From the NCBI GenBank assembly GCA_015272325.1, contig JACYLU010000014.1:1-64000 (forward strand): a stretch of DNA of 64,000 nucleotides, given 5' to 3'. Position 1 is the stretch's first letter. Each line of letters begins with the position of its first letter. This document shows, one piece after another, positions 22,347-39,668 of the stretch. The notes beneath the pieces were generated by a model. That model was given only the letters and a program-made list of their open reading frames with translations. It was not told where the DNA came from and made no database searches. The position numbers were made by a program, and so were the translations under genes. Source of the stretch: Synechococcales cyanobacterium C42_A2020_086. GTDB taxonomy: Bacteria > Cyanobacteriota > Cyanobacteriia > Elainellales > Elainellaceae.

Positions 22347-25300
22347 TTAGAGGATGAAGTTTCTAATTGTGACATCCTTGGCTTCAACACCGCGCAGCGT
22401 CGCTAGCGTGACGAAGGTATTGCCAGACCCAATCCCGTCAGCATCGATTTGCACCAGCGTCCGGGCACGGTCACCGCTACCAATCTGCTTCAATTGCACG
22501 AATTTCTGGAAGCGTTCCGTTGGGCTGTTACCCGCGAAGGCAGATTGAGCAAAGATATCGGAGATATCAATCCGGTCTGCCCTGGTGAAGTCGGTGATGG
22601 TATCTCTACCTTCAGTCATGGAGCCGTACATAAAGCGGTCGCCACCTTTGCCGCCGGTGAGCAGATCGCCACCCATACCGCCGACCATGACATCTCTGCC
22701 GTTGCCGCCGGTCAGGTTGTCGCGCCGGTCGCTACCAAACATGACATCATTGCCGTTGCCACCATCTAGTGCTCCACGGACACCTCTGCCACCGCGATTG
22801 GCTCCAGCAGCTCCACTAGCACCGGCAACCACGAAGTCACCGCCTCGACCTCCCCGGCTCACCGGAGCAGGATTTCTAATTCCCGCCACGATGCCCGCCA
22901 GAGCTGGATCAGTCAAAACACTAATGAAGTTCGCGATCTGCGAGCTAGAGAGTTGGTTCAGGCCGTTGACCAGCATGGCTGTCGGATTGGTCAGCAGATC
23001 CATGATCCGCTGACCTTGCCCGTTCGCCAGCAAAGCTTGCCCTTGAGGGCTACGCAGCAGATCGGTTAGAGCCTTACCTGCCGGAGCACCTGCCTTAGCT
23101 GCATCTGCCAGGAAGCTGATGATCTGAGCACCCTGAGAACTGGAGAAGACCGCTTGCCCCTGGGCACTGTTCAGCAGCCCAGTGATCAACTGACCTGCGG
23201 GTGTATTCAGGAAAGCCCGTCCCTGTGGACTATTCAGCAGATCGGACACGGTCCGCGCGTTGGGATTGTCTTGCAGAGCAGGCGGCAAGGTCACGACAGG
23301 AGCCGGGGTGGGAGCCGGAGCAGGCGTGCCGCCAATCGGAGCCGGAGTTGGGGAAGGGGTACCACCAATCGGAGTCGGAGACGGGGTACCACCAATTGGA
23401 GCGGGCGTGGGAGAGGGAGTGCCGCCAATCGGAGTCGGGGTCGGGGAAGGCGTGCCACCAATCGGATCAGGAGCAGGAGTCTCACCCGGAGTTGGGGAAG
23501 GCGTCTCACCTGGAGTGGGAGACGGTGTCTCGCCTGGCTCTGGAGTTGGGGTGGGATCTGGGTCTGGAGTGGGATCTGGATCTGGGGTGGGATCTGGAGT
23601 GGGTTCCGGATCTGGAGTTGGAGTGGGATCTGGAGTCGGTTCTGGATCAGGATCATCAGGCGTGTCATCGCCGGGTTCGTCGTCACCGGGTTCTTCAGGC
23701 GTATCGTCACCGGGTTCGTCATCGCCGGGTTCGTCGTCACCAGGTTCTTCAGGCGTATCGTCACCGGGTTCGTCATCGCCGGGTTCGTCGTCACCAGGTT
23801 CTTCAGGCGTATCGTCACCGGGTTCGTCATCGCCGGGTTCGTCGTCACCGGGTTCTTCAGGCGTATCGTCACCGGGTTCGTCATCGCCGGGTTCTTCAGG
23901 CGTGCCATCACCGGGCATGTCATCACCGGGCATGTCATCACCGGGCATGTCATCACCAGGCGTGCCATCACCAGGCGTGCCATCACCGGGCATGTCTTCA
24001 TCTGTTTGACCAGGGTTTGTTTGTAAATCGCTCATAGGATTAGGAGTTGGATTAGGTGTTGGTTCTGGATTAGGAGTGGGTTCCGGACTCGGTGCCGGAT
24101 TGGGAGCTGGAGCCGGCTCAGGGGTTGGACCTGGAGTCGACTCAGGGGTTGGAATCGGGCTGGGAACTGGAACGGGTTCAGGTGTGGGAGCCGGAGTTAC
24201 CGTCACCAGCTTCCACAGTTCGATTCCCGTTGTTCCGTTGTCGGCTGTAAAGAAGAGGGTGCCATTGACATTCCTCAAATTGCCGACCGCATCGTTGCCT
24301 GTGGGATTGATGTCAGCGACGCGAACGGTACCGTCTGCTGTGCCGTCACTCGTCCACAGTTCAACATCGGTACCGACCGTGCGAGTGAAAAATAGCCTGC
24401 CGCTAACGTTTGTTAGGTTGCCCAGCGTGGAGCCTTCGCTACCAAGAGTGATGTCCTTGACCAGGACAGTGCCTTCGGCGGTCCCATCACTCTTCCATAG
24501 CTCGGTGCCGTTCGTGCCGTCGTTAGCCGTGAAGTAGAGCGTGCCGTCCACGTTGACCAAGTTGGCCAGGGAAGAGCCAGTACTGCCTGGACGGATGTCC
24601 TTCACTAGGACAGTGCCGTTAGCAGTCCCATCGCTCTTCCATAGCTCGTTGCCGTTCGTGCCGTCATTGGCAGCAAAAAACAGCGTGCCGTTGACGTTGG
24701 TCAAGCCGGTGGGGGAAGAGCTAGCGTTGCCTGATCGGATGTTTCTCACCATGACGGTGCCATCAGCAGTCCCATCGCTCTTCCACAGCTCAGCGCCGTG
24801 GTCATTGTCGGTAGCAACAAAGAACAGCGTGCCGTTGACGTTGGTGAAAGCAGCCGTACTGGGAGCTAAGCCGCCTACCCCCGCGTCTGGATCAATGTCC
24901 TTGACCATGACGGTGCCATCAGCAGTCCCATCGCTCTTCCACAGCTCGTTGCCGTTGATGCCATCCGTCGCAATAAAGAACAGCGTGCCGTTGACATTGA
25001 TTAGGTTGCTGGGGGAGGAAGAATTGCCGCCGTTGATGCCAGTCGCGTTGATGTCCTTTACTAAGGCAGTGCCATTGGTGGTGCCATCGCTCTTCCACAG
25101 CTCAGCACCGTTCGTGCCGTTGTTAGCAGCAAAGAACAGAAGGTTGCCGACGGTGGTGAGGCTGCTAGGGGAAGAAGATCCTCCAGAACGAATATCTCTG
25201 ACGAGGACCGTACCTTGTTCAGTCCCATCGCTCTTCCACAGTTCTCGGTTGTTAGAGGAGCTTTCGGCCGCAAAGAACAGGGTGCCATTGACGTTAGTCA

Positions 25301-25526
25301 GTTGATTGGTAGAAGCCGTGGTTCCAAATGCACTGTTGGAACCAGAGCGGATATCTCTGACGAGGACGGTGCCTTGTTCAGTCCCATCGCTCTTCCACAG
25401 TTCATGACCGTTTGTTCCGTTGTTGGCGACAAAATAGAGAACACCATCAATGACCGTTAAATTGATCGGGGACGAACTCCCGTTGCCATTGATATCTTTG
25501 ACCAAAGTCGGCTCGAAGGTTGTCAT
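22347..25526 (-). CDS. ELWxSDGT-repeat protein with acidic Pro/Gly linker and RTX-type C-terminus
   Basis: 1059 residues. Residues ~1-440 are nine ~45-residue repeats, each containing (N/A/T)[15 protein letters not shown], the last one degenerate; this repeat type is thought to fold as a beta propeller. A long low-complexity region follows (Pro/Thr, then [12 protein letters not shown] units, then GGTPSPTP units). A helical region carries repeated LLNSPQGQA-like motifs (~residues 740-860). The C-terminus has RTX calcium-binding nonapeptides ([29 protein letters not shown]) and a typical terminal domain (DRIDISDIF). There is no N-terminal signal peptide. The RTX end suggests type I secretion, but no transporter lies nearby. 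Probably a calcium-dependent cell-surface or secreted protein. Confidence 0.85.
23660..23909 (-). repeat. 54-bp in-frame tandem repeats in the RTX gene linker
   Basis: Three full 18-codon units encoding [18 protein letters not shown], flanked by two shortened 13-residue copies, are nearly identical at the DNA level. Such arrays change copy number by slippage, so linker length may vary between strains. Boundaries are approximate. Confidence 0.85.
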
Positions 25527-37181: not shown

Positions 37182-38600
37182 TTAAGAGCGACCATAGCGT
37201 TTCAGGAGAGCGCGAGTTTCCTCGGCGGCACTGCGCATTGCTTGAGTAGCCGGAAGTCGGTTGCTGATGGCTGAACTCAGATAGCGCTGCAAAATGTCGG
37301 AGGCTTGGGCGTATTGAGCAATTGGAGGTCTCAAAACAGCTCCCTCCACCACCTTCAGCATGTCTGGCAAGTAGGGATAGCGAGCCACTAGTTCCGGATC
37401 GCTGTAGAGGGAGCGGCGCGTCGGCAAATAGCCATTTTCCAGACTGGACTGGCGTTGAGCCGCGACACTGGCATAAAACTGAGCAACTCGCAGTGCTGCT
37501 TCTGGGTGTGCCGTCGTTTTAGCAATCCCGATACCCCAGCCGCCCAAACAGGATGCACTGGTCGCACCAGGAGCGTGCACCATGGGCTTGATGTCAAACC
37601 TGCCGCGAATCGGCGAGTCATCGGCATTGCCTAGGGGGTAGGCGTAGGGCCAATTGTGCATAAACACCACCTTGCCACTCTGAAATAAACGGCGAGCATC
37701 TTCATGTTGGTAGCTCGTCACGCCTGGGGGTGAAATGCCTTGCTCTAGGGTGTTGCGCAGGAAATTGACGGCTTGTACCGCCTCTGGACGATCGAGACCG
37801 ACTTCCAACGTATCGGGATTCACCCAAAAGCCACCAAAGCCGGCCAAAATATCGACAAAAACGGCTGCTAAACCTTCAAACTGTCGCCCTTGCCAGACGT
37901 AGCCCCAGTCAGCAATACCGGCTGCTTGCAGTTGTTGGGAAATCGTTATCAGATCGGCGAAGGTTTGCGGTGGAGGCAAGCCGGCTTGCTCTAGCCAGTC
38001 CTTGCGATAGAACAGCAACTGCACATCCGAGCGGATTGGCAAGCGGTAAAGTCGGCCGTTGTACTGACCGCCCGCTAAATCTGCAGCCGTAAAATCTGCC
38101 AGATCGGCGGCCGGAATGCGATCGGTAAGGTCGAGTAGCCAACCAGCCGCCGCAAACTTAGGTAGCCAGACCACATCCATCATCACTAGATCATAGGGAG
38201 AATCTCCCAATAGAAACGAGGACGTGTAGAGATCTTCAATGGCATTGGAAGCATTAGGACCTTCCACCACATCGATTTTGATGTCTGGATTTTCCGCTTC
38301 AAAGGCAGCAACGAGACTCTGCCCTTGAGCTGCATCTAGAGCCGAGGTCAGCATCGCCACATGAATCGGTGGCTGCGTCAAGGCTATTCGGCTGTAGAGA
38401 ACCAGGCTCAATCCTAGGATCGAAACAAAGCAGAGCAAGAGGCGCTGTTTCCAGAAATGCGTCCAGTTCGCTTGTTCCAGACTGAACCAACGAAATCTAA
38501 CTCTACCCATGGCTTGAGACGATCTCTCTACTGAGGACTGCAGGTTTCTCGCGGCAGTAGATGACCGATTATACCTCCGCCGAGTGGATTGCTGGCTCAA
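37182..38600 (-). CDS. extracellular solute-binding protein of a sugar-type ABC transporter
   Basis: 472 residues. A basic N-terminus (~50 residues) precedes one hydrophobic anchor (LLLCFVSILGLSLVLYSRIAL). The rest is a family 1 solute-binding fold: IHVAMLTSALDAAQGQSLVAAFE, DLVMMDVVWLPKFAAAGWLLDLT and GKVVFMHNWPYAYPLG. This looks like trehalose/maltose or glycerol-phosphate binding proteins. There is no lipobox Cys after the anchor, so it is probably tethered by the uncleaved helix. The true start could be the Met at 38510 (MGRVRFRW), which would shorten the basic leader. No permease or ATPase genes are adjacent, so its transporter partners lie elsewhere. Confidence 0.85.
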   Translation of the reverse strand: MSQQSTRRRYNRSSTAARNLQSSVERSSQAMGRVRFRWFSLEQANWTHFWKQRLLLCFVSILGLSLVLYSRIALTQPPIHVAMLTSALDAAQGQSLVAAFEAENPDIKIDVVEGPNASNAIEDLYTSSFLLGDSPYDLVMMDVVWLPKFAAAGWLLDLTDRIPAADLADFTAADLAGGQYNGRLYRLPIRSDVQLLFYRKDWLEQAGLPPPQTFADLITISQQLQAAGIADWGYVWQGRQFEGLAAVFVDILAGFGGFWVNPDTLEVGLDRPEAVQAVNFLRNTLEQGISPPGVTSYQHEDARRLFQSGKVVFMHNWPYAYPLGNADDSPIRGRFDIKPMVHAPGATSASCLGGWGIGIAKTTAHPEAALRVAQFYASVAAQRQSSLENGYLPTRRSLYSDPELVARYPYLPDMLKVVEGAVLRPPIAQYAQASDILQRYLSSAISNRLPATQAMRSAAEETRALLKRYGRS

Positions 38601-39185
38601 TCGCCGTTACGATGGCCGTAAATCCCAGGTCAGCAAATCCTCAGTTAGCCTGACGGATGCACTCTAGATGAGTCTTAAATTTACTTAAATTTAGATTAAA
38701 AAGTAGCCATTCAACGACGGCTAATTGCGGGCAATAGAGAATACTATCTCGGTAGAAAAATTCATGCTTTAATACCTTTTGAAAAAGGAAAAATCTCCAA
38801 TATATCTTAAGTTTTGAGGGGGATATCTAAGGATAGGGTCATCTTGCAAATATTCTGAAATACAGCTCTATATATAGGGTCTACCCATACTTCTTATTTG
38901 GGGATCGACCATCTTTAACAGCAGCTAGTCCTTCAATCAGTGGCGGTGATTGATTTAATTATGCTAGAGATTAAATGCGCTTGAGGAATTTTTGATTTCA
39001 GATTTCTTCCTGATCTGGAAGACAGTTCTTTGAATTCTATAGGCAGGTTGACTGAAATAACCAACTGCCTTCCGAATGCCAGAATTGTCATCCAAGAACG
39101 TAGGTTATTTGGTCTGCCCAACACCAGTGGTGAGGGCTGTTTCTCATCGCTGAATTTGTCTACCCAATCGTTTGAGGAAAAACCT
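38601..39185. other. 585-base intergenic region
   Basis: AT-rich, with a TATATATA tract near 38871. An in-frame extension upstream of the small Tyr-rich protein gene reaches 39030 but lacks a ribosome site. No RNA gene was recognised. Confidence 0.5.
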
Positions 39186-39467
39186 ATGGAAACCCTCGCT
39201 TATCTGTCGGTTGCTCAGGACTATGAAGCTCCTGAGACGAAGGAATTGGACCTAAGCGCCCTCAAGGGGCTGGCGACCGCAGGTCTAGTTGTGGCTGGTG
39301 CAACGCTCGGTTCGATGAGCGTGGCAGAAGAAGCTTCGGCACATTACTACCGTGGCTACTACCGTAGCTACCGTCCTCACTATGTGAGCTACCGTCGCTA
39401 CTATCCGCGCCACATCTATGCGTATCCCGTGTACTACGGTCGTCGTCACCCCTGCTACTACTACTAA
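39186..39467 (+). CDS. small exported tyrosine/arginine-rich protein
   Basis: 93 residues. The ATG at 39186 has GAGG 8-9 bases upstream (TTTGAGGAAAAACCT), which decides the start over the longer frame. The N-terminus METLAYLSVAQDYEAPE is polar. A hydrophobic segment follows (LKGLATAGLVVAGATLGSM), then VAEEASA, which looks like a signal-peptidase site before HYYRGYY. The remaining 41 residues contain 16 Tyr, 8 Arg, 4 His and one Cys, and end in CYYY. METLAYL-type leaders seem to occur on other cyanobacterial exported proteins, from memory. Function is unknown; tyrosine cross-linking, metal binding or a matrix role are only ideas. A hairpin terminator follows at 39626. Confidence 0.75.
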   Translation: METLAYLSVAQDYEAPETKELDLSALKGLATAGLVVAGATLGSMSVAEEASAHYYRGYYRSYRPHYVSYRRYYPRHIYAYPVYYGRRHPCYYY

Positions 39468-39625
39468 ATCGCAAGCGGCTAGCGAGATGTATCTTCATCT
39501 TGGCTAGGATGTATCCCAAGGTCATCAGACTTTAGGGATAAAACCAAAGTGCCGGTAGTAAGTGCAGGGTATCAACCTCTGGTTCGGGTGAGATAAACAG
39601 TTTAGGTCAATCAGTACTTTTGCAG

Positions 39626-39668
39626 AGAAGCTTCATTGCCTAGGTTCGGTGAAGCTTCTTTGTTTTTT
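39626..39668 (+). terminator. rho-independent terminator after the Tyr-rich gene
   Basis: A 10-bp stem AGAAGCTTCA / TGAAGCTTCT with a 14-nt loop is followed by a T-rich tract TTGTTTTTT. It ends at the 3' end of gpsA, so it may act on both strands. Confidence 0.8.

Follow-up and report, generated by a model that had tools for sequence, protein, structure and literature searches.

A tyrosine-rich cyanobacterial peptide with a conserved, predicted export leader shared with peptidoglycan-binding proteins

A small gene in the stretch of DNA analysed here (64,000 nucleotides of a filamentous cyanobacterium, hereafter the window) proves, on comparison with its relatives, to be real and conserved in related species. 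Its product is predicted to use an export signal that is widespread, conserved and not covered by existing models, and that is shared with many wall-binding proteins; segments rich in Tyr and Cys recur under the same signal. It is this leader, not the core, that ties the peptide to a large cyanobacterial family, a connection which the original prediction overlooked. The reading that we favour, and which we consider slightly better than an even prospect, is that the mature product is a disordered, cationic Tyr/Arg peptide, exported through the Sec pathway, that fills the cell wall or sheath as cohesive or cross-linkable material. Taken alone, such a peptide would be a lineage-specific curiosity; the wider interest lies in an unannotated signal, present in nearly a quarter of the sampled cyanobacterial genomes, that marks a family of exported wall proteins.

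Translation of 39186-39467 (+) yields METLAYLSVAQDYEAPETKELDLSALKGLATAGLVVAGATLGSMSVAEEASA as the leader and HYYRGYYRSYRPHYVSYRRYYPRHIYAYPVYYGRRHPCYYY as the core, corresponding to a precursor of 93 residues that divides into a 52-residue leader ending in A-S-A and a 41-residue core. The core is composed of 16 Tyr, 8 Arg, 4 His, 4 Pro and a single Cys among its 41 residues, with Asp, Glu and Lys entirely missing, and the residue counts of the original prediction (52 and 41 residues, 16 Tyr, 8 Arg, 4 His) are exact on translation. The calculated pI is 9.8 for the core versus 4.05 for the leader. The density of Tyr is not a matter of chance. Compared with the 16 Tyr per 41 residues observed here, the richest stretch of equal length elsewhere in the window, all six frames included, contains 7, and the maximum in 20 Markov-shuffled windows was 4-6. 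It should be noted that the mechanically called open reading frame begins at a TTG at position 39030 and spans 145 residues; that start was rejected in favour of the ATG at 39186, since the latter is preceded by a Shine-Dalgarno sequence and is the point from which all relatives align. On the opposite strand, only an 87-residue shadow frame with an inverted codon pattern was observed. Scans of the peptide against Pfam and NCBIfam gave no match, the sole NCBIfam hit (TIGR04224) being far under the cut-off, and the search against PDB sequences returned chance hits only (E ~0.3 or worse). In an AlphaFold2 single-sequence model, the core has no predicted fold (pLDDT below 50 for residues 53-93), which weakly suggests that it is disordered. 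The features of the locus are listed in Table 1.

Table 1. Positions of the gene, its predicted parts and the flanking signals in the window
Feature	Position	Strand	Basis
Candidate promoter region: upstream block conserved in part among orthologues (TGATTTAATTATGCTA...)	38944..38999	+	Orthologue comparison
Shine-Dalgarno GAGGA, 7 nt before ATG	39174..39178	+	tttGAGGAaaa context common to orthologues
CDS, Tyr-rich peptide precursor of 93 aa, predicted exported	39186..39467	+	Orthologues, dN/dS
Leader n-region, residues 1-27, extended, acidic, METLAYL...DYE.P...KEL, ending at K27	39186..39266	+	Conservation of E2, A5, Y/F6 and E14 across 89 leaders, synonymous codons varied
Hydrophobic h-region, residues 28-47	39267..39326	+	Leader alignment; helix predicted for residues 24-60 by a single-sequence model of low confidence
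Signal peptidase I-type c-region EEASA, predicted cleavage after A52	39327..39341	+	[AVSTG]xA motif in 89/89 leaders
Core left after predicted cleavage, 41 aa with 16 Tyr and 8 Arg, motif YYPRHIYAYPVYY..RHPCYYY at the C-terminus	39342..39464	+	Composition, orthologue alignment, selection; predicted disordered
Terminator-like hairpin, 17 pairs, T tail	39622..39663	+	Strong, downstream of CDS

Whole-genome searches of related genomes retrieved short relatives that match over the full length of the peptide. An absence of homologues would have counted against the original prediction; orthologues were found, and the prediction is not refuted on that point. When short and longer matches were told apart by the length of the open frame, the short Tyr-rich form was present in 7 of 36 genomes of the taxonomic family, namely the own genome and six others, the carriers known by name being Cyanobacteria bacterium RM1_2_2, Elainella sp. 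Prado103, Pegethrix bostrychoides, Elainella saxicola and filamentous cyanobacterium CCP2. As only 7 of 36 carry it, the peptide is dispensable in most relatives, which counts against the favoured reading. The locus itself is conserved in RM1_2_2, Prado103, P. bostrychoides and E. saxicola, where, as in the window, the peptide gene lies between the gene of a sugar-type ABC solute-binding protein and gpsA, followed by an M3 peptidase; by Pfam, the syntenic neighbours comprise SBP_bac_1, gpsA, the M3 peptidase, a response regulator and an ABC ATPase. Pairwise codon comparisons among the five syntenic orthologues, limited to pairs with unsaturated dS, gave dN/dS values of 0.09-0.23 for the leader and 0.10-0.28 for the core, pointing to purifying selection on both parts alike. 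In the orthologue alignment, the Tyr columns of the core are mostly retained, with Phe, His or Cys as replacements, and the C-terminus forms the conserved motif YYPRHYYAYPVYYRPC.YYY, in which Pro89-Cys90 is invariant in 8/8 aligned peptides. In E. saxicola (L068:6725-8270), three tandem copies of the gene were observed with strongly diverged cores, and the leader of the middle copy has diverged too (METLTGSHHALGSG...).

The n-region signature of the leader family, METLAYL..A.dYE.P, is present in the window peptide. A profile of 19 sequences, the window leader among them, matched the own genome at E = 1e-18 (the window leader itself being one of the 19 rows) and, with a cut-off of E = 1e-3, 92 of the 390 genomes sampled from the Cyanobacteriia, representing 55 of 160 genera; in a phylum-wide sample, matches were obtained in 47 of 386 genomes. 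Across the family, the n-region is long (median 30 residues) and acidic (net charge -3), compared with about 5 residues on average and a positive charge in usual n-regions (PMC12341915). In 89/89 leaders, the hydrophobic part leads into an A-x-A-like site, and the export claimed by the original prediction is well supported by this extended, predicted Sec-type signal and the A-x-A site found in all relatives. The most conserved residues are E2 (86/89), A5 (85/89), Y or F6 (84/89) and E14 (81/89). Their synonymous codons vary, for example with all four in use for Ala5, so the target of selection is the peptide rather than its mRNA. Pfam and NCBIfam scans of the peptide and its relatives gave no model for the leader, and a text search of the literature found no paper on METLAYL as a peptide motif. 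At G291:C461:2772-2843 (locus L044), a 44-residue open frame in which the leader is present only in its initial portion looks like a broken gene.

The company in which the leader occurs was analysed through 90 distinct leader-bearing proteins, most of them picked for the leader alone, with domains called by profiles built from Pfam-confirmed domains. PG_binding_1 was found in 74 (35 of these with SH3b in addition) and SH3b only in three, so that 77/90 members carry one or the other after the leader; the remainder are nine short Tyr/Cys-rich peptides and four proteins that are truncated, broken or unclear. The window peptide has neither domain, with no Pfam match, and is a core-only form. In the own genome, among the matches listed, the leader stands on only two of about 14 PG_binding open reading frames, a count in which loci cut short could hide an N-terminus; the leader is thus no general mark of peptidoglycan-binding proteins. 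Tyr/Cys-rich segments, defined as at least 9 Tyr plus Cys in 40 residues, were counted in 29 members of the leader collection versus 2/168 other open reading frames from the same loci, a comparison that is partly circular for the short peptides, as their sequences helped to build the leader profile. One of those two other frames is itself a diverged leader-like copy. The fused proteins of another taxonomic family are free of this circularity. In the family of the window, the Tyr/Cys segment lies between the leader and the PG domain, while in the other family (L062, L080, L082, L087) the leader is followed by PG_binding and SH3 and then by a tail of tandem YYPVSYGGCGYDYGCG-like repeats. The presence of two domain orders under one leader argues for a joint role of the Tyr/Cys segment and wall binding. 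On another contig of the own genome, two paralogues of 207 and 193 residues combine the leader, a Tyr/Cys segment and PG_binding_1 (Pfam-confirmed), and the pair is syntenic in three other genomes, flanked by genes named hisG-like and phosphatase-like by sequence reading. Between these two paralogues (G000:C6:121824-122066; L004:1501-1743) lies an 81-residue peptide with the same leader and a core of CCRPRPIV repeats, another core-only form that is rich in Cys, Arg and Pro rather than Tyr. The sheath component suggested by the original prediction, or a component of the wall, is well supported by homology, the same leader and similar Tyr/Cys segments being fused to peptidoglycan-binding domains in relatives.

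As judged from these patterns, the precursor would be delivered to the Sec machinery by its extended signal with an acidic n-region and cleaved by signal peptidase I at ASA|H, after A52, for which the sequence pattern makes a strong case. The released peptide of 41 residues would then reside in the periplasm, cell wall or sheath; a periplasmic or wall location is suggested by the wall-binding domains of the sister proteins, and retention of the short peptide in the wall is proposed by analogy, as the peptide itself has no wall-binding domain. Its most likely role would be that of a non-enzymatic structural filler, in which the side chains of Tyr and Arg make many weak contacts among themselves, with anionic polymers of the wall or sheath, and with the Tyr/Cys segments of sister proteins. 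Tyr and Arg are mutual stickers in condensates. The role of Tyr as a sticker is also described in one source (PMC12677899). Disorder together with the richness in Tyr and Arg is thus proposed to let the peptide cohere with further copies of itself as well as with sister proteins and the anionic polymers of the wall, suggesting a glue-like part of the cell envelope. Furthermore, some Tyr residues, or the single Cys, may become linked covalently in the oxidising environment that oxygen production creates, although covalent cross-linking of Tyr is speculative. The own genome encodes no tyrosinase, and an animal-type haem peroxidase is present in the own genome and in Elainella Prado103 and missing from several other carriers of the peptide; no dedicated cross-linking enzyme is therefore evident. 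Should cross-links form between the Tyr-rich cores, oxygen from photosynthesis would take part in hardening the envelope.

Among the alternatives, that of an exported binder of metal, haem or quinone, with a periplasmic metal coordinated or reduced by Tyr, His and the conserved Cys, survives best, and we nevertheless regard it as unlikely. The 16 Tyr and 4 His of the peptide and the PC conserved close to its C-terminus, as well as the additional Cys in several orthologues and paralogues, are what such a binder might display, and binding by a Tyr/His/Cys peptide would look identical at the level of sequence; but the number of His varies, the position of Cys is unfixed among orthologues except for the C-terminal PC, and the syntenic neighbours with Pfam matches include no gene for a metal transporter or regulator. 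Release into the medium as a cationic antimicrobial-like or signalling peptide is quite improbable: small size, predicted export, a pI of 9.8 and a core without acidic residues are set against a Tyr-rich sequence that is not amphipathic, homologous Tyr-rich segments that are tethered to wall-binding domains, and neighbours with Pfam matches that contain no immunity gene. Very little weight is given to a RiPP precursor or a GG-type secreted peptide resembling EbfG, whose leader would direct modification or export by an ABC transporter. The small size, and the long conserved acidic leader before an odd core, recall such peptides, but this leader ends in a hydrophobic stretch and A-x-A (A-S-A) with no GG before the core, large PG-binding proteins bear it as well, and the core has no fixed set of Cys, Ser or Thr. 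The modified peptide entertained by the original prediction is likewise unsupported, as Pfam detected no modifying or maturation enzyme among the neighbours and the leader is common to ordinary wall proteins. Least credible of all is a decaying fragment of a PG-binding paralogue after domain loss, an idea prompted by the two fused paralogues of the own genome and contradicted by the same locus in five genomes, dN/dS of 0.1-0.28, a conserved C-terminal motif and the tandem duplication in E. saxicola. An origin from a mobile element or phage is unsupported, no relative having been found in viral contigs, phages or plasmids.

The structural filler proposed here can be compared with known systems. 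The window peptide shares the extended leader, the A-x-A site and similar Tyr/Cys segments with the exported PG_binding_1 (PF01471)/SH3b proteins of cyanobacteria, but differs from them in the absence of a PG_binding or SH3 domain. Tyr-rich disordered proteins build the cross-linked oocyst walls of coccidia, and one of them localises to sporocyst walls (PMC4776368). Like this coccidian EtSWP1, the peptide is predicted to be exported and disordered with its Tyr in one region, the wall location being shown there and inferred here; it would be a Tyr-rich disordered exported protein, as dityrosine wall proteins are, with disorder taken from the single-sequence model only. The coccidian proteins are eukaryotic, however, with no evident sequence homology to the peptide. 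EbfG of Synechococcus elongatus (PMC4997328) is similar in belonging to small exported cyanobacterial proteins tied to the extracellular matrix, but uses a double-glycine motif, whereas the METLAYL leader is of the Sec type with A-x-A. Among the papers listed, the literature search showed no comparable Tyr-rich or dityrosine system in cyanobacteria. In staphylococci, the YSIRK motif of YSIRK/GXXS signal peptides sorts its cargo of surface proteins (PMC5962339). The METLAYL leader likewise has a conserved motif ahead of its h-region and is confined to certain wall proteins, although the two motifs are unrelated in sequence and YSIRK belongs to a Gram-positive system. By this analogy, we tentatively raise a further reading, on the doubtful side, that the METLAYL n-region is a dedicated sorting signal for the place or time of export, a Gram-negative-type counterpart of YSIRK, and that the Tyr/Cys-rich members, including the peptide, build up a protein layer within the peptidoglycan or sheath that is cohesive or cross-linked. 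The leader would offer a handle on how a protein destination is chosen between plasma membrane, thylakoid lumen, septum and sheath, and its family a handle on the non-sugar (protein) make-up of tough cyanobacterial envelopes.

The 5' region of the peptide gene is long (about 215 nt) and in part conserved among orthologues; together with the conserved upstream block, it represents a possible promoter with a long leader transcript. A search of this region against Rfam gave no match. The single upstream sequence of the window folds better than its shuffles (z about -3), but the consensus fold of five orthologous upstream regions contains only two weak hairpins, and a conserved RNA is not claimed for that reason. 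Other genes of the window were also observed. The sugar-type solute-binding protein gene at 37182-38600 (-) has no adjoining permease or ATPase genes, likewise at locus L065, and its product is an orphaned binding protein; at loci L066, L067 and L068, permease and ATPase genes directly follow. At 22350-25526 (-), a protein of 1059 residues with an ELWKSDGT-type opening and one RTX-like (HemolysinCabind) match near its end is probably a large secreted protein.
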